Shown piece after piece: positions 1,449 through 12,000 of a stretch of 12,244 bases of DNA. This DNA comes from Zoogloeaceae bacterium. GTDB taxonomy: Bacteria; Pseudomonadota; Gammaproteobacteria; Burkholderiales; Rhodocyclaceae. The notes under the pieces are model-generated. The model was not told the origin of the DNA. It did no database searches and saw only the letters and a list, made by a program, of their open reading frames with translations. Each line of letters starts with the position of its first letter. Position 1 is the stretch's first letter. The stretch spans positions 1-12,244 of the forward strand of contig JAITNI010000315.1 in assembly GCA_031290535.1 (NCBI GenBank), in the 5' to 3' direction. Both the position numbers and the translations under genes were made by a program.

Positions 1449-2216
1449 TCAGGAGGATTCTGCGTGTTCGAGCAGGCGACGTGCTTCGGCGCGGATTTCC
1501 GCCTCCGGGTCGTCGAGCAGGGGAAGAAGATGTTCAGCGGGCGCATGGGCAAGGGCAGAAAAGCGTACCCACCATTCCGGGTCGGCGAGGAATTGCGCGG
1601 CCAGTTCCGGCAGTGCCCGACTGGCCACAAGGGCGCGGATTTCCTCTTCCGCATCGTTTCGCAACATCGACAGGGCAAAACTGGGCAGACGCGCCGCTAC
1701 TGCCTTCCTCACCTCACGTTCCGGGTCACGCGCCAGACGCAGCAACTGACCGTGCGGCAGGCGTTTGGCGACGGTGACGCGCACCAGATAATCCGGGTCG
1801 CCCAACAGCAGCACGAGTTTTTCCGGCGGCAGGCGGAGCGCAACGGTGTGGCGCACTTCCCGATCCGGGTCATGCGCCATGTCGGGCAGATTTTCCAGCG
1901 GCAAACGACTGGCGACCACGCGCCGCACCACTTCGTCCGCGTCGTGCATCAAGGAAAAAATGGCCGCGAGCGGCGCGTAGCGACAGGCGATGGCGCGGCG
2001 CTCCCAAAAAGAATCTTGCAGATAGCTTTCCGCTTCCTGTGAATTCTTTCGCAAAAAGCGGTCAATCTGACGGCCACTGTCGGCGCGGATACAGGCATCC
2101 CCCGGCGTGCAGCGGGCTTGCTGCGGCCAGTTTTGCAAGGCGTGCGGACAGGCGACGCAGCGCGCAACCGTTTTTGCAGCACGGGTGACGTCAAAAAAGG
2201 AGCGTTCAGTCTTCAT
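1449..2216 (-). CDS. LRV (leucine-rich repeat variant) protein with N-terminal 4Fe-4S domain
   Basis: This 255-aa protein matches the LRV protein first described beside Azotobacter vinelandii nif genes. Near the N-terminus are four cysteines, C20-X2-C23-X12-C36-X5-C42, as expected for the small LRV 4Fe-4S domain. The rest consists of about seven 24-residue helical repeats with the pattern D-P-(D/E)-x-x-V-R-x-x-V-A-x-R-L-P, for example DPDREVRHTVALRLP and DPEREVRKAVAARLP. LRV repeats form a right-handed solenoid of alternating alpha and 3-10 helices, a shape typical of protein binding; the function is unknown. I chose the ATG at 2216 because the longer reading frame to 2354 would lie inside the upstream gene. 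With this start the two genes overlap by 11 bp, which indicates translational coupling. Confidence 0.85.
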   Translation of the reverse strand: MKTERSFFDVTRAAKTVARCVACPHALQNWPQQARCTPGDACIRADSGRQIDRFLRKNSQEAESYLQDSFWERRAIACRYAPLAAIFSLMHDADEVVRRVVASRLPLENLPDMAHDPDREVRHTVALRLPPEKLVLLLGDPDYLVRVTVAKRLPHGQLLRLARDPEREVRKAVAARLPSFALSMLRNDAEEEIRALVASRALPELAAQFLADPEWWVRFSALAHAPAEHLLPLLDDPEAEIRAEARRLLEHAESS

Positions 2217-2481
2217 CGGCGCGGGTCGCCACCACAATGCCGGTTGCAGCGTCGAATTCACTCGTGAATTCCAGACAATGTCCGCTGGCATTGGTGAACA
2301 GAAAATAGAAATGGGCGGGGGTTTCCAGCACCGGACGCATCCGGGCGGGCACATCGTCCTCGCCGCAATCGGTGAACATCACGCCGGGGAATTCCTCACG
2401 CAATGCCTGCGCCGTTTTGCCGCCTCTGACGCTGGCGACAGAAGCGGCAACCGTCTGCAAAAATTCCGGGCTAATGTTCAT
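2206..2481 (-). CDS. Small conserved nif-cluster protein, 91 aa
   Basis: A 91-aa acidic protein that begins 3 bp after the nifY stop codon and overlaps the LRV gene by 11 bp, so it is the middle gene of a tight cistron. Its place between nifY and LRV corresponds to the small unnamed orf at that position in A. vinelandii. It has an N-terminal helix (PEFLQTVAASVASVRGGK), then MFTDCGEDDVPARMRP, and ends in what look like strands (AHFYFLFTNASGHCLEFT). No catalytic motif is evident. It may belong to a small domain-of-unknown-function family seen in nif clusters (possibly DUF6129), but I cannot confirm this. The two cysteines are too far apart for an obvious cluster site. A nif accessory role is inferred from position only. 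Confidence 0.8.
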   Translation of the reverse strand: MNISPEFLQTVAASVASVRGGKTAQALREEFPGVMFTDCGEDDVPARMRPVLETPAHFYFLFTNASGHCLEFTSEFDAATGIVVATRADED

Positions 2482-2484
2482 CGC

Positions 2485-3210
2485 CTACGCTCCGACGAGG
2501 GAAAGTTCCGTCTCGTACTTCGCCAGCGAGGCAGCGGGTACGCCCATGACATGCGCCAGCCAGGGCGGCGGCGTCTGGAGACTGTTCTGAAGATCGGCCA
2601 GCACTTCCCGCGCCACGCCGCCGCTGGGAGCTGTGATGGGATGCACTCCGGCACGCACCACCTTGGCCGCCGCCGGGCCGCCGATGGATTGCAGGTAGAT
2701 AATCTGGCAATCGGCGACCAGCGCGGCGCGGGCGGCGTTTCTGTCCTCGGCCTGATCGGTGCCCAGCGCGTCGCGCACTGCGATGAGCCGGATATCCTCC
2801 GTCGACACCTGATAAATCAAAAACCGTTCGCAGGAGCCAAAATGCCCATCCAGCAGCTCGCTGTGATTGGAGGCGAGGGCGACGCGGATGGAACGCGGTA
2901 AATCGCCCTCGGTATAGGCTTCAATGGCAGGCAGGTCGCTGCCTTCCACGCCCTCGCCCTTGAAGAGGCGAATCACGGCTTTGAGGGCTTCGGGTTCCAC
3001 GCCGACGATGCAGTTTTCTTCGGCATGGTCGCCCGCCAGCATCTCACGCAGGTCTTCCACCGTAATTTGCGCCAGCCGGGTTTCGGTGAGCGGCAAACCA
3101 TAGCGATCCGCCAAGGCATTCACAAACACCTTGAGATCAAGGTGATTCAGGGCGTGTGCCGCATAGGCAATCCGCAGTGCCGCCTCGCGGGAAGCAACAG
3201 GTTGGGACAT
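2485..3210 (-). CDS. nifY: NifY/NafY-family FeMo-cofactor-handling protein
   Basis: This 241-aa protein has the two-part build of NifY/NafY. A helical N-terminal domain (about residues 1-95) precedes a NifX-like dinitrogenase iron-molybdenum cofactor domain (about 105-235). The cofactor domain opens with RVALASNHSELLDGHFGSC and continues ERFLIYQV. His123 in the HFG motif aligns by eye with the histidine reported to be needed for FeMo-co binding in A. vinelandii NafY. Proteins of this group bind apo-NifDK or FeMo-co during MoFe protein maturation. The ATG at 3210 is chosen over an upstream ATG at 3285. It has AAGGAA 7 nt upstream, and the predicted sigma-54 start site near 3235 lies downstream of 3285. 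The gene heads the second nif transcript, followed 3 bp later by the 91-aa orf. NifY and NafY are hard to tell apart without a tree; the position downstream of nifT favours NifY. Confidence 0.88.
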   Translation of the reverse strand: MSQPVASREAALRIAYAAHALNHLDLKVFVNALADRYGLPLTETRLAQITVEDLREMLAGDHAEENCIVGVEPEALKAVIRLFKGEGVEGSDLPAIEAYTEGDLPRSIRVALASNHSELLDGHFGSCERFLIYQVSTEDIRLIAVRDALGTDQAEDRNAARAALVADCQIIYLQSIGGPAAAKVVRAGVHPITAPSGGVAREVLADLQNSLQTPPPWLAHVMGVPAASLAKYETELSLVGA

Positions 3211-3245
3211 AAAAAAATTCCTTGTAAAATTCCTGTTCAACACAA

Positions 3246-3261
3246 AGCAAGAGCCGCGCCA
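3246..3261 (-). promoter_or_regulatory. Sigma-54 promoter (-24/-12) of the nifY operon
   Basis: The minus strand reads TGGCGCGGCTCTTGCT, which matches the sigma-54 consensus TGGCACG-N4-TTGCW at every fixed position except one (G for A). The invariant GG and GC are spaced correctly. The transcript would begin near 3235, leaving a leader of about 25 nt with AAGGAA before the nifY ATG. A perfect NifA site lies upstream at 3312-3327, which strongly supports function. Confidence 0.85.
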
Positions 3262-3311
3262 CTTTGCAAGCCTTGGTTTTCTCAAGGATTTGGCAGAGGG
3301 AGGGTGGGGTT

Positions 3312-3327
3312 TGTCGTAAAGCTGACA
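3312..3327. promoter_or_regulatory. NifA upstream activator site for the nifY operon
   Basis: TGT-CGTAAAGCTG-ACA is an exact TGT-N10-ACA NifA site. The symmetry extends by one pair at each end (TTGTC and GACAA). Its centre is about 85 bp upstream of the predicted transcription start, a normal distance for NifA activation through sigma-54. The rest of the 300-bp gap between nifY and the antitoxin gene (3211-3510) holds only this control region, the toxin-antitoxin promoter and no convincing gene. Confidence 0.8.
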
Positions 3328-3446
3328 AGCGGGGAAGAATTTCGGCGGGGGTACTGGAGATGACCATACCGGACAAGCCGAACAGCCGTTTGCAGAAATA
3401 CCGCATCACTGGACAAGGGCAGGCGTGGTTGAAGCAGATTTCAACC

Positions 3447-3475
3447 TTGCAGAAATGAAGTCATGGCACTAAAAT
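3447..3475 (+). promoter_or_regulatory. Possible sigma-70 promoter of the toxin-antitoxin operon
   Basis: TTGCAG (3447-3452), a 17-bp spacer and TAAAAT (3470-3475) form a plausible promoter about 35 bp before the antitoxin ATG. The -10 box matches 5 of 6 positions but the -35 box only 3 of 6. The box is consistent with a weak, autoregulated antitoxin promoter. Confidence 0.45.
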
Positions 3476-3492
3476 GAAAGCAATGAAGACAT
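3455..3492. promoter_or_regulatory. Candidate FitA operator: two ATGAAGWCAT boxes
   Basis: ATGAAGTCAT (3455-3464) and ATGAAGACAT (3483-3492) are near-identical, partly palindromic 10-mers 28 bp apart. They flank the -10 box of the presumed toxin-antitoxin promoter. Ribbon-helix-helix antitoxins commonly repress their own operon by binding paired short palindromes, so these are the best operator candidates. Binding is inferred. Confidence 0.4.
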
Positions 3493-3510
3493 TTTTGGAG
3501 AGGTGATGAC

Positions 3511-3768
3511 ATGGCAACATTAACGGTACGCAATCTGCCCGACGACGTGCATCGGGCTTTGAGGGTGCGCGCCGCGCAACGCGGTTGCAGTACAGAGGCG
3601 GAGGTACGCGCCATCCTGGAGAAGGCGGCGAAGCCAGAAGGGCGGTTGAAGTTGGGTTCGCTGCTGGCCTCCATCGCCCGTGAAGCAGGCGGGCTGACCG
3701 ACGCGGAAGCTGAGCGTTTCAACCAGCTTCGTGACAAGACAGCAGCAGCGCCGTTGAGGTTTGAATGA
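3511..3768 (+). CDS. FitA-like ribbon-helix-helix antitoxin
   Basis: This 85-aa protein starts with a typical FitA-type ribbon-helix-helix domain: the strand ATLTVRNLPDDVHRAL, then helices through RVRAAQRGCSTEAEVRAILE (about residues 2-42). The C-terminal half is expected to wrap around and block the toxin. The start has GAGGTGAT just upstream. Its stop overlaps the toxin start as ATGA (3765-3768), the usual translational coupling of such pairs. The antitoxin should neutralise the PIN toxin and repress the operon. It is on the plus strand, opposite to all other real genes in the window, and sits between two nif blocks, which suggests later insertion. Confidence 0.9.
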   Translation: MATLTVRNLPDDVHRALRVRAAQRGCSTEAEVRAILEKAAKPEGRLKLGSLLASIAREAGGLTDAEAERFNQLRDKTAAAPLRFE

Positions 3769-4184
3769 TCCTCATTGATACCAACGTGATTTCTGAACTG
3801 TGGAAGTCCGCGCCTGATTCCGGCGTGTTAACCTGGGTTGACGCTCAGGCGGTCGAAACGCTCTACCTGTCGGCTGTCACCGTGGCTGAATTGCGTTTCG
3901 GTCTGGCGACCATGCCGGAAGGGAAGCGGCGCTTCACTTATCAAGATCGTCTGGAGCGGGAGGTTTTGCCCGCCTTCACGGGGCGGGTGCTGCCCTTTGA
4001 TCTGGATGCCTCAGAAGCCTACGCAACATTGATGGCGCGGGCGAAGTCCGAGGGCAAGGCGATCAGCAAGGCGGACGGCTACATCGCCGCTACAGCTACC
4101 GCCCGTGCCTTGATGGTCGCAACGCGCGACGTTGAGCCGTTTCTGGCGGCTGGACTGACCGTCCTCAATCCGTGGAAAGCGTAG
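3765..4184 (+). CDS. FitB/VapC-like PIN-domain toxin ribonuclease
   Basis: A 139-aa PIN-domain protein of full family length. The acidic metal-binding residues are all present: D5 in MILIDTNVISEL, E42 in VTVAELRFG, D104 in ISKADGYIAA and D122 in VATRDVEPF. These match FitB/VapC toxins, which are Mg2+-dependent ribonucleases that often cut specific tRNAs or rRNA; the target here cannot be read from sequence. The gene overlaps the antitoxin by 4 bp. Its 3' end lies only 24 bp from the convergent end of the ferredoxin gene, with no visible terminator between. The intact active site argues that the system is functional rather than decaying. Confidence 0.92.
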   Translation: MILIDTNVISELWKSAPDSGVLTWVDAQAVETLYLSAVTVAELRFGLATMPEGKRRFTYQDRLEREVLPAFTGRVLPFDLDASEAYATLMARAKSEGKAISKADGYIAATATARALMVATRDVEPFLAAGLTVLNPWKA

Positions 4185-4208
4185 GGCGTCCGCTTGAAAA
4201 TCTGTGGC

Positions 4209-4397
4209 TCAGGCGTAAACGATGCTGCCTGACGGACAGACGTCCATGCACTTGGGGGAATCCTGGTCTTCGCATTCGGTGCAGCTCTCGGCGCTGACCA
4301 CGAGGTTGCCTTTTTTGATGGTGATCGACTTGGTGGGACAGACCGGGATGCAGTCGTCGCAGCGGGTGCATTCGTCGATGTTGATGGTGACGGCCAT
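4209..4397 (-). CDS. fdxN: 2[4Fe-4S] ferredoxin of the nif cluster (FdxN-like)
   Basis: A 62-aa bacterial-type ferredoxin with all eight cluster cysteines: C10-X2-C13-X2-C16-X3-C20-P and C39-X2-C42-X7-C50-X3-C54-P. The stretched spacing in the second motif is typical of the Allochromatium-type group found in many nif clusters. Such low-potential ferredoxins can donate electrons to NifH or serve in nitrogenase cofactor assembly. The ATG at 4397 has AGGAGA 7 nt upstream. It begins 24 bp after the nifT stop, so it should be the last gene of the nifHDKT transcript. The symbol fdxN is by family and position; a more specific assignment would need a phylogeny. Confidence 0.9.
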   Translation of the reverse strand: MAVTINIDECTRCDDCIPVCPTKSITIKKGNLVVSAESCTECEDQDSPKCMDVCPSGSIVYA

Positions 4398-4421
4398 GAG
4401 GGTTCTCCTGATAATGAGGGG

Positions 4422-4649
4422 TCAGTCTTCCGCCGCGCCCAGACGGCGGGCGCGTACCGAGATGGGCAGACGTTCCGGTTTGGGGATGGGGTCGACGTAG
4501 TAGCTGCCGCCGTTTTCCAGTTTCAGTTCGCCGCCCCATTTTTCCGGGGTGTCGAATTCCAGGGACTGAATGTCGGCCTCCAGATCGCGTTTGGGCAAAT
4601 AAAACACCAAGCCTCCGGCGGGGTTCTGGCGAATCATGATGTTGGCCAT
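4422..4649 (-). CDS. nifT: NifT/FixU protein
   Basis: A 75-aa protein with the typical NifT/FixU sequence: MANIMIRQNPAGGLVFYLPK, a central KWGGELKLENGG, and a C-terminal PKPERLPISVRARRL. NifT follows nifK in many diazotrophs. Its role is unknown; a link to MoFe protein maturation has been proposed and mutants generally fix nitrogen normally. The ATG at 4649 has AAAGGAG upstream. It is preceded by a 76-bp gap with a strong hairpin after nifK and followed 24 bp later by the ferredoxin gene. Confidence 0.92.
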   Translation of the reverse strand: MANIMIRQNPAGGLVFYLPKRDLEADIQSLEFDTPEKWGGELKLENGGSYYVDPIPKPERLPISVRARRLGAAED

Positions 4650-4685
4650 GTGCGGCTCCTTTGTCGTGGGCGTGATGGAACAATC

Positions 4686-4713
4686 GCCCCTCTCCCGCGA
4701 GCGGGCGAGGGGC
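4686..4713. repeat. GC-rich hairpin between nifK and nifT
   Basis: GCCCCTCTCCCGC (4686-4698) and GCGGGCGAGGGGC (4701-4713) pair at 12 of 13 positions around a 2-nt centre, giving a very stable stem in the nifK-nifT spacer. On the minus strand there is no T-run after it, so it is not a standard intrinsic terminator. It could slow read-through or protect the 3' end of the nifHDK message, or be a dispersed palindrome. Confidence 0.6.
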
Positions 4714-4725
4714 TTTGTTGATTGA

Positions 4726-6294
4726 TTACCGCACCAGATCGTGGTTGTAATCGGTGACGCCCATTTCGCGGGTTTCGTCGTCCAGACGTTCCAGCACAGC
4801 GTTCACCAGCGTGGTGAGGATGTACATCGCGCCCTCGTAGCCCAGTGTGGTCATGCGGTGCAGGTGGTGGCGGTCGAAAATCGGGAAGCCGATGCGAATC
4901 AAGGGCACCTCGAATTCCTTGCCCTTGTGGAGCGTGTCGCGCTGGATGAACTTGCCGTAGCTGTTGCCGATCAGGAAATCCGGCTTGTCGGTAAAGCACA
5001 GGCTGCGCAGATGCCAGAGGTCGCAACCGGGGTAGGTCTTGGCATTGACGCCGTAGGGGGAGCTGGCGAGGAGTTTTTCCATCGACTTCGCCCAGCGCTT
5101 CGAGCCGTTGTTGCAGACGATGTGCGTCGGCTCAATGCCCAGTTCCAGCATGAAGCCGACCATGCCATAGACAAAATCCGGGTCGCCGTAGATGGCCATT
5201 TTTTTGCCGTGCAACCAGGCGTGCGAGTCGGTCATCATGTCAACCAGACGTCCGCGTTCAGTGGCAAGCGACAGGGGAATTTCCTTGCCCGTGGCCTGCG
5301 AAACCGCCATCAAAAAATCGTCCGTGGCGGAAACGCCAATCGGGATGGTGATTTTCGGCACTTCCTGATTCCAGGTGCCTTCGACAAACTTCCGCGTTTT
5401 TTCCAGCGTTTGCGGCTGAAGGAGGAAAGTGGTGATGGCGTTCGGCGCGTCCTTGATTTCGGGGATGGTCGTGCCGCCCGCGTACATGCGGAATTCGCCG
5501 TCCGCCGGGGTATCCAGCACTTCTTCCGGGTCGCAGAGGAAGGTGTAATCGACGCCCATTTCCTTCAGCATCCGCTTGATGACGCGGTAGTTGCCAAGGT
5601 AGGTTTCAAAACCGGGCACGATGTTGATCTTGCCGTTGGAGCCGACCGTTTTGCCTTCCATTTCGTTGAGGGTGAAATAGCGCAGAATGCCTTCTTCCAT
5701 GTTATCCCAGCCAGTGACGTGCGAACCGACAAAAGAGGGGGTATGGGCGAAAGGGACGGGGAAATCCTTGTCCAGATTGCCTTCGTTCCGGGCATTGCCG
5801 ATGAAGGCATTCAGGTCATCGCCAATGACTTCGGCCAGACAGGTGGTCGACATGGCGATCATTTCCGCGCCATACAGGCGGGTGGCGTTCGCCAGCCCTT
5901 CGTGGACATTTTTCTGTCCGCCGAACACCGCCGCATCTTCGGTCATGGAATCGGCGATGAAAGCAATCGGCTCCTTGAAATGGCGGTTGAAATAGGTGCG
6001 GAAATAGGCGACGCAGCCTTGCGAGCCGTGGATATACACCAGACTTTTATGAAAGCCCAATCCACACAAAGCGGAGCCGAGCGGCTGGCAGGCTTTGGCC
6101 GGGTTGATGGTCAGCGCCTCGCGCTTGAAATTGAGTTCCTGATACTCCAGCGAGGTCGTCCACTCGAAAGTCTCGCGCACCTTGTCGGCACCGGGGTTCT
6201 CTTCGAACTGTTCGCGCTTGTTCTTGAGCGTTTCCTTGTAATCGTCGTTGCGAAACAGGGGGTAGCAGGGTTTGATGTGTTCTACGTCTTGCAT
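4726..6294 (-). CDS. nifK: Nitrogenase MoFe protein beta chain
   Basis: The 522-aa product is the beta subunit of the MoFe nitrogenase, which with NifD forms the alpha2beta2 tetramer that reduces N2 to ammonia. The P-cluster cysteines are visible as C69 (KACQPLG), C94 (SQGCVAYFRTYF) and C152 (STTCLAEVIGDD). Length and sequence are normal for the group that carries an N-terminal extension (MQDVEHIKPCYPLFR), which caps the alpha chain. The ATG at 6294 is chosen over an upstream ATG at 6399 because it has AAGGAGA at good distance, starts with the conserved N-terminus, and the longer form would begin within 3 bp of the end of nifD. The gene follows nifD by 107 bp. No damage is seen. Confidence 0.98.
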   Translation of the reverse strand: MQDVEHIKPCYPLFRNDDYKETLKNKREQFEENPGADKVRETFEWTTSLEYQELNFKREALTINPAKACQPLGSALCGLGFHKSLVYIHGSQGCVAYFRTYFNRHFKEPIAFIADSMTEDAAVFGGQKNVHEGLANATRLYGAEMIAMSTTCLAEVIGDDLNAFIGNARNEGNLDKDFPVPFAHTPSFVGSHVTGWDNMEEGILRYFTLNEMEGKTVGSNGKINIVPGFETYLGNYRVIKRMLKEMGVDYTFLCDPEEVLDTPADGEFRMYAGGTTIPEIKDAPNAITTFLLQPQTLEKTRKFVEGTWNQEVPKITIPIGVSATDDFLMAVSQATGKEIPLSLATERGRLVDMMTDSHAWLHGKKMAIYGDPDFVYGMVGFMLELGIEPTHIVCNNGSKRWAKSMEKLLASSPYGVNAKTYPGCDLWHLRSLCFTDKPDFLIGNSYGKFIQRDTLHKGKEFEVPLIRIGFPIFDRHHLHRMTTLGYEGAMYILTTLVNAVLERLDDETREMGVTDYNHDLVR

Positions 6295-6359
6295 GGTGTT
6301 CTCCTTTGCGACGCCACTTAGCCGTGGACAAGCCGCGAAAGTTGCAAAAAAATTCCTGG

Positions 6360-6380
6360 GGGGCGCATTCAATTCGCCCC
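6360..6380. repeat. Palindrome in the nifD-nifK spacer
   Basis: GGGGCG (6360-6365) and CGCCCC (6375-6380) form an inverted repeat around a 9-nt A/T-rich loop. On the minus strand the stem is followed about 8 nt later by a run of seven T residues. It could therefore be a weak attenuating terminator or an mRNA-processing or stability hairpin between nifD and nifK. The core TAGGGGCGAATT-type sequence also resembles dispersed palindromes in other bacteria, which I cannot test here. Confidence 0.5.
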
Positions 6381-6401
6381 TACAAACGTCCCAAGGCAAA
6401 A

Positions 6402-7877
6402 TCAGGCGGCGATCTTTTCGATCTCCGGCTCAGGCTTTTTCAACCAGGGGGGCGTCATCTTCGACCAGCAGGGATTGTTCAGGGTCATATCCATATCGCG
6501 GGCGAAAATGGCGAAACCATCGGTGCCGTGATAGGGGCCGGAATAATCCCAGGAATGCAGTTGCCGGAACGGGACGCCCATTTTGTGAAAGACGTATTTT
6601 TCCTTGATGCCGGAGCCAATCAGATCGGGTTTCATTTTCTCCACGAACTGCTCGAATTCATAGCCGGTCACGTCATCGTAAATCAGCGTCGCGTCGCCCA
6701 TATCCTTGATGGTGCGGTCGTAATCGTCATTGTGGGCGAATTCGTAGCCCGTGCCGATCACTTCCATCCCCAGGTCTTCATACGCGCCGACCACATGGCG
6801 CGGACGCAGGCCGCCCACATACAGCATCACCTTCTTGCCTTCCAGACGCGGACGGTATTTGGCAATCACCGCCTCCATCATCGGGGTGTATTTGGCAATC
6901 ACGCGCTCTGCGCCTTCCTTGATCTTGTCATCGAAAAAGCCGGCGATTTTCCGCAGCGATTCCTTGATCTTGGTCGGGCCAAAGAAATTGTATTCCAGCC
7001 AGGGGATGCCATATTTTTCTTCCATATGGCGGCTGATGTAATTCATTGAGCGGTAGCAGTGCAGCAGATTCAGTTTCACATTGGGGGTGTTTTCCATTTC
7101 CGCCAATGTGCCGTCCCCCGACCATTGCGCCACCACGCGCAAGCCCATTTCTTCCAGCAGAATACGGGAAGCCCAGGCGTCGCCGCCGATGTTGTAGTCG
7201 CCCAGAATCGCCACATCGTAGGGCGTTTTTTCAAACGGCTGCCCGTCGCGGTTGGAGAGGATGTAATCGCGCACCGAATCGTTGGCGATGTGGTGGCCGA
7301 GCGATTGCGACACGCCGCGAAACCCCTCGCAGCGCACTGGCACCACCGGCTTGCCGAGTTCGGTAGTGGCTTTTTTGGAGACGGCTTCAATATCGTCGCC
7401 AATCAGGCCAATCGGGCATTCGGACTGCACGGAAATGCCCTTGTTCAGGGGGAATAAAGCCTCGATTTCGTTAATCATCTTGGCGAGTTTTTTATCGCCG
7501 CCGAACACGATGTCCTTTTCCTGAAAATCGGAGGTGAAATTGATTTCGCAGAACGAATCCACCCCGGTCGTGCCGACGTAATAATTCCGCCGTCCGGCGC
7601 GGGCGTATTGACCGCAGCCGATAGGGCCGTGCGAGATGGAGATGATGTCCTTGATTGGCCCCCAGACCACGCCTTTGGAACCGGCGTAGGCGCAACCGCG
7701 CATGGTCATCACGCCGGGCAGGGATTTGCGGTTGGAGGTAATACACTTTTTTGAGGATTCCAACGTTTTATCGTTGACCATCAAATGTTTGGCCCGGTCT
7801 TTCTTGGCCTTGTCGGGATACACCTCAAGCACTTCGGCAATGAGGGCATCGGTTTCTTCGCGGGTAAGCGCAGACAT
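6402..7877 (-). CDS. nifD: Nitrogenase MoFe protein alpha chain
   Basis: The 491-aa product is the alpha subunit, which holds FeMo-cofactor and shares the P-cluster with NifK. P-cluster cysteines are C62 ([11 protein letters not shown]), C88 ([17 protein letters not shown]) and C154 ([12 protein letters not shown]). The FeMo-co ligands are C274 ([11 protein letters not shown]) and H441 ([13 protein letters not shown]). The substrate-pocket histidine corresponding to A. vinelandii His195 is present at H195 (SLGHHIAND). The ATG at 7877 (MSALTREE) is preferred over one at 7925: it has AAGGAAAC upstream and gives the usual N-terminus. The gene begins 67 bp after nifH. All key residues are intact, so a functional Mo-nitrogenase is expected. 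Confidence 0.98.
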
Positions 7878-7898
7878 TTTGTTTCCTTTCGTCGCGTC

Positions 7899-7914
7899 GG
7901 CGCTTATTCGCGCC
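7899..7914. repeat. Short stem-loop in the nifH-nifD spacer
   Basis: GGCGC (7899-7903) and GCGCC (7910-7914) form a 5-bp perfect stem with a 6-nt loop between nifH and nifD. There is no T-run. Stem-loops in this spacer are known in other diazotrophs and are thought to leave more nifH than nifDK message. Here the stem is short and the role is inferred. Confidence 0.35.
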
Positions 7915-7944
7915 AGACACAGCAATGGAGGGGATTAACCGGAT

Positions 7945-8871
<927 letters not shown>

Positions 8872-9087: not shown

Positions 9088-12000
9088 TAACTTCGCGCCT
9101 GATTGAGTTTCAGCAGCCGTTTGAGGATTTCCGCGTCGCTCGTTTCCGGGGTGTAATCCTGCCAGCCGTAGGCGGCGGCGACGGCGGCGTCCAGTGCCTT
9201 GTGGGCATTGTCCAGCCATGCCGGACGCTGGTTGTAGAGATTCGTCAGGGTGCGCTTTTTGAGTTCGGCCTCAAAACCGGGTTTGGCGATCGGGCGCTTG
9301 GGGAAACCTGCCGCTTCTTCCGCCGGGGTGATGACCCAGTCGACCCATTCGGGCGGGTTGAGCCAGTTTTCGCGGAGTTCGTTCAGACGACGGGCGGCGG
9401 CGGCGATGCGCTCGGCGTGGGGGTTGGCCTCCCCCCTGACAAGGGGGAATTGAGGGGGGTTTGGGGAGGTTCCGCTGGCTTCAACCGTTGTTTCTTGCTC
9501 AACCGCCGCAAACCCCTCCCCAGCCCTCCCCTTGTCAGGGGAGGGAGTCGCGCTGTCCCGTGGCGTCATCCCTTCCGGGAAGGGGAAGGTCTCGAAGCAG
9601 GTGGCAATAACATAGGTAGGATAATTGCCAACACCGTGCATGGATGCGTTGGCAAGCGCCCACACTTCATGGATATGGCTGGACAGAATGCCCATGTTGA
9701 CATCATCGGCACGGGCGATGACGCAAAGCCGAGTATCCGGGAGAACCGCATTTGATCGCCAAACAAAAAAGCGATGTTTGGCAACACGTGGGGTGACGAT
9801 AAAACGCGGGAGACCCTTCACTGCTTTCCGCAATTCCACCCGGTTTCTTTCATGCAGCCACCAGTTACGCTGCGTTTTTTCATCGCTGGCGGTCTGACGT
9901 GCGGGCTTTACATGCTCCAGCACAAATTCATAAGGTAATTCAAAAAGGGATGCTGTGTTTTCCGGCATGACGCCGAAATCAATAATCCATTTATCGGAGG
10001 GACGTTTGGTAATATCTAGACCATTTGCCCAAGGTTTAACGACCATGCTGTTGGGCTGGCCGTTCGGGTTCGGCTGCGTTAACCAGCGACGCGCCAGCTC
10101 TCCCGAAATATCAAACTTCCCATATTTTTTTGTGCCTTCAAAGCTGCAACCCGCATTCTCCGCCAGCACTCTGGCTTCGGTGAGATTCACGCCACCCCCT
10201 GCCGTCAAATCGGCATGAATGGCAGCGACTTCCTGACCGTTCAGAAAACAAACCGACGGCAAAACCAGCGCGGTTTTAGCCTCCCCCCTGACAAGGGGGG
10301 ATTGAGGGGGGTTTGGGAGGGTTCCGCTGGCAACAACCGTAGTTTCTTGCTCAACCGCCGCAAACCCCTCCCCAGCCCTCCCCTTGTCAGGGGAGGGAGC
10401 ATGGGCAAACCCGACCAGCGATACCCGTACCGCCGCGCCTTCATTCACCCACGCCTCATCGCTCCACGCTTCAAAAATGCGGGCATCGGCGACAATGGCA
10501 TCCAGCACTTTGCGGTTGCTGCCGTTGCGGATGGCTTGCGTCGCGACCAGTCCCGCCGCCTGCAATTTCCCGGCGAGCATTTGCGCTCTCGCCTTGTGAA
10601 ACCAGTAGCAGACCAAATCCGCGCCGCCGGGGACGTGGGCGGCATAAACCTTGTTGAGCGCCGCAAAATAATCATCGCCCAGTTCGCGGCGTTTTTTGCT
10701 GCCACCCAATAACGGCGGATTGCCGACAATCACATCCGCCTCCGGCCATGCGGCCTCGCTGCCGTCGGCGTTCAGTAGCGCATCCTGATGCCGGATGCCG
10801 GAGAGCGAGCGCAGAATCGGGTTTTTGGCGTGTGGGTAGTAATTCTGGTGGCTCCATTGAATGTCACCAATCCACACCGTCACCCGCGCCAGTTCAGCGG
10901 CGAATTCGTTGATCTCCAGACCCAGAATATTGTGCGGGCCGGTGTGCAGGGATAAATCGGCTTCAAACCCCATTTCCTGCGCGTCGACGTTGGCGCGTTT
11001 TTCGACATCGCGCAAGGCTTTCAGGGCCAGATAGAGAAAGTTGCCGGAACCGCAGGCGGGGTCAAGGACGCGAAAATTTTCCAGCCGCAGCAAAAATCCC
11101 TGATACGCCGCCCTGGCCTGCTGGGCGTATTTTTTAACGGTTTTGGCCGTGCCCTGCGTGGCAAGCGCGGCCTCCATGCGGGCGCGAATGTCCGCCCATT
11201 CGCAGAGCAGGGGTTCGCTAATCAGGGGACGAATCAGTTTTTCTATTGTCTGGGGGTCGGTGTAATGCGCCCCCAACTGGGCGCGTTTGCCGGGGTCAAG
11301 GCCGCGCTCGAAGAGGGTGCCGAAAATGGAGGCGTTGATCGCCCGCCAGTCCTTGCCTGCGGCGTCTTGCAGGCTTTCAAGGTCGGCAATGGAAAGCGGC
11401 GGGATGTCGATTTTCTGGAACAGCCCGCCGTTGAACCATTCAATATCGTCATTGCCGTAAGTGCCGGATTTTTCCTGCATGGCAAGAAAGAGTTTTTGCA
11501 AACGGTCGGCGGATTTTTTCGGGTTGGGAGCCGTTTGGTCAAGGAGGTGACTGAAAATGTCCTTGGGCAACAGTCCCTCATCTTCGGCAAACATCGCAAA
11601 CAGGCACTGCACCAGAAAATGCGCCACCTGTTGCCCCTCCAGCCCGCGCCCGCGCATGGCGGCGGAGAGTTCGGCAAATTGCCCGGCCATTTCTTCCGTG
11701 ATCGCGGCATTGGATTTTTGCGGGCGGAGTTTTTCGGGTGAGACGAACACCCAGCGCAGCACTTCCTGCGCGGCGGGGTCGGCCAGTTCTTCGATCAAAA
11801 TCGTGCGGACTTCATCCGGGTAGCCGGTGAAGGCGGTGTGAATCTCGATGATTTCGCGGTCGCAAACCACGAGCAGCGGCGGATTGTCGAGATTCAAAGC
11901 GTAATCGGTAAGCTGCTTCAGCGCCGCTTTCAGGTCGCGTCCCGGCTTCTTGTTCTCCCACGCAAAATGCCCGCGCTTCCAGACATCCGCCCAGCCCTCG

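Follow-up and report, generated by a model that had tools for sequence, protein, structure and literature searches.

Palindromic repeats that lie in frame in conserved genes have been described in Rickettsia (Ogata et al. 2000/2002), where a guanylate kinase carrying such an insert is reported to stay active with altered substrate affinity (PMC2229807, PMC10969869). Di Nocera et al. (2013, PMC3733652) consider REPs of the GTAG and CGTC types that lie inside genes to be perhaps neutral in linkers or loops; REP dimers inside genes encode 20-30 amino acids, clusters in Thauera and R. conorii encode 43-82 amino acids, and recB of two Xanthomonas species holds different REPs at about the same site. 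Additionally, QMITE insertions are reported to be sometimes in frame (PMC5896051), and the protein-coding palindromes of Wolbachia and Methanocaldococcus jannaschii (Ogata 2005; Suyama 2005, as cited in PMC2229807) are also palindromic repeats with coding potential, likened here by description.

The element examined in this work was found as two copies within one gene of a 12,244-nucleotide stretch of DNA (the window) from the draft genome of a betaproteobacterium. It resembles the Rickettsia palindromic elements (RPEs), as described in those sources, in two respects: RPEs are palindromes of about 105-150 bp found in and between genes, and our element measures 124 nt and folds stably; RPEs lie in frame in unrelated conserved proteins with a conserved peptide, and our element has seven copies in five kinds of gene, all in one frame. 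It differs in its host, whose homologues within the genus are named Zoogloeaceae at NCBI, in being GC-rich and in having a core present in several phyla. By analogy of description, the element would work like an RPE without being filed as one. The earlier note on this DNA had proposed a family analogous to RPEs, and the palindromes, their in-frame position in unrelated genes, the single peptide and the absence from relatives agree with that proposal.

REPs share with our element small hairpin units, often inverted dimers, in many copies. However, GTAG or CGTC lay within 8 nt of an end in 0/31 near full-length copies of this genome (each motif occurs somewhere inside 5 of the 31), and the RAYT of the GTAG class was not found in this incomplete genome. 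The TIR repeats of TIRYT tyrosine transposases are likewise inverted, some of them self-complementary, and occur as dimers and in moderately abundant families (PMC3733652), but their GGGGWSAS motif was present in only 2 of the 31 copies, and an associated transposase was not found in the loci examined, which is a weak test. Literature searches with the encoded peptides brought up one unrelated paper and those with core DNA strings none; together with the other searches, in a literature mostly without subscription papers, preprints and supplements, they found no description of this family; the kind of element is already known, and the family itself was not found in print within that scope.

Results

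The host gene and its surroundings

The window carries, at 1449-8847, an ORF of the NifH family and a pair of nifD/nifK-like ORFs for nitrogenase component 1, with Nitro_FeMo-Co and LRV/FeS proteins close by; the NifH-family and nifD/nifK-like ORFs support the diazotrophic host that had been suggested from the letters alone. A FitA-like ribbon-helix-helix antitoxin and a PIN-domain toxin form a pair amid these nitrogen-fixation genes (3511-4184). No Rfam family matched within the window at gathering scores.

The gene that holds the repeats matched the PADLOC REase_MTase_IIG model with E 7.7e-276, and Pfam placed MmeI_Mtase, MmeI_hel and MmeI_N above and MmeI_C and MmeI_TRD below cut-off. MmeI (5hr4) was the sole PDB sequence match at E <= 0.001 (E 1.3e-40) and ranked first among fold matches for the enzyme's model, in line with its earlier identification as MmeI-like. 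Residues D60, E70 and K72 and five tested positions of DPACGSGNF, which we take to be the PD-(D/E)XK nuclease and N6-adenine methyltransferase motifs, agree with 119/119 homologues. The NPPF motif (methyltransferase motif IV), present in 119/119 homologues, reads NPPL in the host enzyme (F485L, window 10710-10712). Including F485L, the enzyme deviates at 14 of 394 near-invariant positions, against a set median of 1; at least 14 such deviations occur in 8 of 120 sequences, the host enzyme counted among them. These 14 unusual residues suggest that the enzyme may be decaying under relaxed constraint, and its tolerance of inserts would then be less informative.

The two copies in the gene

The two copies form a direct repeat of 124 nt, about 94-95% identical with 7 differences, whose starts lie 852 bp, or 284 codons, apart (Table 1). 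Their flanks are unrelated, the 20-base blocks beyond the ends being 15-40% identical. Both copies are read in one frame of the minus-strand ORF, with the SPDKG peptide starting at residues 591 and 875. The earlier note had described two palindromic elements of 121 bp, about 95% identical and 852 bp apart, in the same gene, orientation and frame, and this description is correct to within a few bases (124 nt, 94%). As RNA, the coding strand of the two copies folds at -71.3 and -76.1 kcal/mol, whereas shuffled sequences average about -53 kcal/mol (z -4.4 and -5.7) and 0/200 shuffles are equally stable; both near-palindromic copies are far stabler than their own shuffles.

Table 1. Window coordinates of the host gene, its palindromic copies and the third variable loop
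Feature	Position	Strand	Basis
MmeI-like type IIG/IIL restriction-modification enzyme gene, 1025 aa	9087..12164	minus	PADLOC, Pfam, PDB sequence and fold
Palindromic element, site 1, residues 591-629, end of methyltransferase domain	10276..10399	minus	direct repeat, fold, pLDDT < 50
Left hairpin unit, site-1 copy, encodes PSPDKGRAGEGF	10361..10399	minus	sequence, frame table
Right hairpin unit, site-1 copy, encodes NPPQSPLVRGEA	10278..10324	minus	sequence, frame table
Palindromic element, site 2, residues 875-913, between target-recognition and C-terminal domains	9424..9547	minus	direct repeat, fold, pLDDT < 50
Left hairpin unit, site-2 copy	9509..9547	minus	sequence, frame table
Right hairpin unit, site-2 copy	9426..9472	minus	sequence, frame table
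Site 3, third loop, residues 464-472, no insert in host enzyme, filled in other homologues	10749..10775	minus	homologue lengths, G010 orthologue

Sites 1 and 2 are domain boundaries (the Pfam match to MmeI_Mtase ends at residue 588, that to the TRD ends at 864 and MmeI_C starts at 967), and site 3 precedes the NPPF motif. In the AlphaFold2 model, residues 592-631 and 874-911 have pLDDT < 50 and no secondary structure, which fits the surface loops proposed for both copies. The model is mediocre (mean pLDDT 70, pTM 0.55) and other target-recognition parts are equally poor, so that low pLDDT at the inserts is weak evidence by itself; both 39-residue inserts are probably disordered loops.

A repeat family in the genome and the genus

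Against the window's own genome, a fragmented draft that is 62.6% complete, the repeat unit gave 60 matching pieces at E <= 0.001, a figure that counts both strands of one palindrome. Fetching these stretches and rescanning them with a profile resolved 43 distinct copies in the stretches examined; the total is probably higher because some copies touch contig ends (C306:1-115) and candidates were scored in part. The genome search for further copies that the earlier note had proposed thus returned at least 43, both inside and outside genes, the majority outside any recognised gene. The element consists of two inverted GC-rich hairpin units of ~40 nt around a variable loop and spans roughly 80-131 bp, fragments aside. 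Outside genes, many copies are bordered by common sequence, GCGAAGCGCAGC-like to the left and CTGGAACCGCTTGG-like to the right, that does not accompany the genic copies. The genus is represented by 19 further genomes: two, G009 and G002, gave 65 and 53 matching pieces, four had 1-6 matches and 13 had none at E <= 0.001. Judged from these sequence matches, the copy-rich genomes (G009, G002 and the window's own) represent a lineage-specific expansion.

Once duplicates are removed, the window's genome has 26 ORFs of 150 aa or more that span a copy. The family scan covered 21 of them: 20 were compared with Pfam, 5 of these also with NCBIfam, and the window gene was compared with Pfam separately. 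Family support and position placed 7 of the 43 copies in recognisable genes of five kinds. Besides sites 1 and 2 of the window gene, copies lie at site 2 of a paralogue that is also MmeI-like and shares 82% identity across residues 875-1024, in a dipeptide-type ABC ATPase between its pair of ABC domains, in YgiQ (TIGR03904, E 1e-249), in an exporter whose HAE3/MMPL similarity is weak (E 8e-10, under the curated cut-off) and, as a half copy, in a TamB-like ORF. All seven are read in one frame, PSPDKGRAGEGF...NPPQSPLVRGEA, the complete ones as PSP(D/V)KGR...PLVRG(E/D). Three frames are open from end to end in both window-gene copies and in the ABC-gene copy, and two in the YgiQ and exporter copies.

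The spacing between cores was 95 nt, or 2 mod 3, in 5/5 complete genic copies, and the same phase was found in 7 of the 24 other measurable copies (Fisher p 0.007); this count left out the 14 of 43 copies whose spacing was not measurable, two of them genic. The copies in L073 (near a type III translocon-like ORF) and L071 (before a DUF3261 domain) were classed as non-genic because they lie before the recognisable part of the ORF, a decision that took the genic phase count from 6/6 to 5/5. Since only frame-preserving insertions are visible as genic, such a bias is expected and reflects a filter, not an insertion preference. Among ten ORFs scanned in G002, another MmeI-like gene holds a copy whose left half is in the PDKG frame and whose right half is in a different one, a Dyp-type peroxidase has a copy before its domains, and the other eight matched no family. 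From the readings in this MmeI-like gene and the three frames seen in other lineages, the one-frame rule is not strict outside the window's genome.

Two genic copies are accompanied by further repeats. The paralogue is a C-terminal piece at a contig start (L070:1-552), and another repeat is nested in the left end of its palindromic insert; the nested sequence GGAATGCGGCGAAGCCGCAC, or one nearly the same, also adjoins truncated copies in L026, L029 and L075. In the TamB-like ORF (L012:1503-1700), the half copy is followed by another in-frame repeat-like peptide, VRPELVEGHSPWKQGLRQAQPERTE.

Relatives and other inserts in the same loops

The YgiQ peptide was missing in 12/12 sister genomes that have the gene and the ABC ATPase peptide in 17/17 sister genomes covered there, the orthologues of both also differing in some residues that adjoin the element; the MmeI-like homologues lack the two peptides as well, and gaps in homologues were what the earlier note had asked for in support of mobility. 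Site 1 is covered by eight orthologues of the window enzyme, found in seven sister genomes, a count that leaves out further matches such as a third G012 gene, and the peptide is present in 0/8. At site 2, the G002 orthologue has a short related stretch, IPSPDKEMSGEGFAP.

Other insertions were seen at or near these places. The ABC ATPase orthologue in G016 (L131) bears its own, different insert at the interdomain site, LPSPTCGVLQTANGCPEGTGEGEHA, and YgiQ of G013 has another repeat-like stretch, LPSPFVGEGRG, near the insertion place. At site 1, the MmeI-like orthologues in L109, L114 and L123 contain short TEDGGQKTEDR-like stretches in frame, which seem to be a repeat type of their own within the genus.

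Of 7,997 database homologues the best 119 were measured: the residues anchoring site 1 are separated by a median of 12 residues (55 in the host enzyme) and those anchoring site 2 by 23 (51 in the host enzyme). At sites 1, 2 and 3, respectively, 13, 9 and 6 of these 119 homologues exceed the median by at least 20 residues; this was judged from the proteins, with the DNA unseen, and some of the extra lengths are perhaps not repeats. By eye, P0041, P0002, P0045, P0087 and P0071 have PLVRGEA-, HPHPNPPLEGEG- and SPDKGRPGG-like peptides in these loops, and P0071, which matches the G010 orthologue, has all three loops filled. P0041 carries the same two half-peptides at site 2 in swapped order, apparently through an independent event as far as the protein sequence indicates. 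The same peptides at the same positions in the aligned homologues, an observation that would speak against mobile repeats, were absent, with the swapped half-peptides of P0041 as a caveat.

Wider occurrence of the hairpin core

The 22-base core CCCTCCCCTGACAAGGGGAGGG was found in at least 120 stretches; on an estimate that assumes even base composition, 257 billion bases would contain it roughly 0.03 times by chance. The 80 listed core loci hold 83 occurrences and include isolates of Zoogloea, Aeromonas, Hafnia and the cyanobacterium Anabaenopsis, as well as MAGs of further phyla, in which contamination is possible. A plasmid search gave one 36-bp match, in a 4.9-Mb Aeromonas record.

Ten ORFs chosen for their resemblance to known proteins all had Pfam support: GatB (in two genomes), MetH, MetG, AceF, Lpd, a P-type ATPase and two RND transporters in Gallionella/Sideroxydans/Nitrosomonadales-type MAGs, and HypF in a gammaproteobacterial MAG. 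Their frames were PSPDKGR in six, PLSGEG in two and PLVRGG in two. Four further ORFs comprised one FliK-like below cut-off, one with the copy before a DUF559 match and two of no family. Both GatB inserts immediately precede AKLCANW, at one shared position, and run in opposite directions (L158:1506-3023, a Nitrosomonadales MAG; L230:2896-4425, a Gallionella MAG), which points either to independent insertions or to flipping of the palindrome.

Discussion

The inserts are very probably copies of a non-autonomous, REP/MITE-like palindromic element that multiplied recently and is tolerated in permissive loops. Copies in phase, with a core-to-core spacing of 95 nt and the stop-free PSPDKGRAGEGF...NPPQSPLVRGEA frame, would enter genes without breaking them, and would be translated as a Pro/Gly-rich disordered loop of ~39 residues. 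Such near-neutral copies would be retained at permissive loops or domain boundaries of the protein, and in the MmeI-like enzyme those places would be the methyltransferase/TRD and TRD/C-terminal boundaries. Movement would be by copying, either through an enzyme acting in trans or through copying at the replication fork.

No transposase or target duplication was linked to the element in the loci examined; the element has inverted ends, and no target-site duplication could be delimited because the orthologues differ around the site. Y1_Tnp (the RAYT/IS200 domain) was not found in the window's genome (62.6% complete) or in copy-rich G009; copy-rich G002 has four matches, partial or stop-interrupted, and two copy-poor genomes, G014 and G010, have long matches. 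In a survey of 200 genomes of the order, the domain was present in 21 of 27 genomes with the element and 101 of 173 without it (p 0.06), a weak link whose counts come from listed genomes and tallies and assume that both searches covered the same 200. Furthermore, the ORFs of 110 element loci (80 core and 30 sister-genome loci) gave no phmmer match to ORFs from the Y1_Tnp loci of the genus, with few queries and some spurious ORFs among them. Among these loci, units in opposite orientation neighbour each other at distances of 350-2600 bp in five cases.

How the second copy arose within the gene can be considered from the identities between copies. Gene conversion or local copying from the first copy, with no separate insertion, is a doubtful but serious alternative: sites 1 and 2 are 95% identical, whereas the inherited site-2 copies of the gene and its paralogue are 87% identical with a 9-nt indel. 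However, a copy on another contig, that in the ABC gene, matches each of the two just as well (94-95%), a pattern that fits one recent burst, and the similarity stops at the element ends. The three copies thus appear to derive from one recent burst or to have been converted, and conversion between copies already inserted may also have taken place. The site-2 insert itself is older, because gene and paralogue both have it with an identical 20-base right flank. The earlier note had favoured recent spread or gene conversion; the near-identity stands and extends to the ABC-gene copy.

It is also necessary to consider that the inserts could be selected, as Pro/Gly-rich linkers that alter activity or specificity, with the one frame used as the best-working peptide. 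The single frame of all seven genic copies in the window's genome would agree with this, as would the homologues in which unrelated peptides, several of them repeat-like, occupy these three loops, including the G010 orthologue with all three. On the contrary, the same peptide occurs in the unrelated ABC ATPase, YgiQ, exporter and TamB proteins, the majority of the 119 homologues have no insert there, a frame bias can arise where stops or unfavourable readings are avoided, and the genic copies include three that are near-identical and so not independent. We consider selection of this kind improbable. Far less probable still is that the hairpins, very stable as they are in the mRNA strand, are skipped by ribosome bypass or removed from the RNA to leave proteins without the loops: the complete genic copies are in phase and stop-free, which bypass would make needless, and in Rickettsia the insert-bearing gmk product is reported to be translated and active (PMC2229807). 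Finally, native structural repeats of the MmeI-like family, suggested by the position of both peptides at domain boundaries where homologue lengths vary, are ruled out for practical purposes by the near-palindromic DNA, by aligned homologues that lack the peptides (related half-peptides such as those of P0041 excepted) and by the same peptides in unrelated genes and outside genes of this genome.

The reading of the inserts as a tolerated mobile palindrome has consequences beyond this locus. Repeats inserting into proteins are best known from Rickettsia, and here dozens of copies are found in several sister genomes, within a family that occupies conserved genes with peptide-free orthologues and whose core extends from Betaproteobacteria to Cyanobacteria. 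The family offers a natural series (copies outside genes, in phase, in genes, nested and decayed) for asking how selfish DNA turns into protein sequence, and it marks candidate permissive loops in type IIG enzymes. More tentatively, and as a possibility we rate somewhat below an even prospect, these repeats may belong to a family of mobile coding palindromes that spans several phyla, is separate from the GTAG/CGTC REPs and repeatedly enters the same permissive loops in housekeeping and defence enzymes that are unrelated to one another. The cases in point would be GatB, with its one linker occupied in both orientations in two genomes, and the MmeI-like enzymes, whose three loops hold inserts of several repeat families. 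If this is true, such a family would be a general supply route of new disordered linkers for bacterial proteins.
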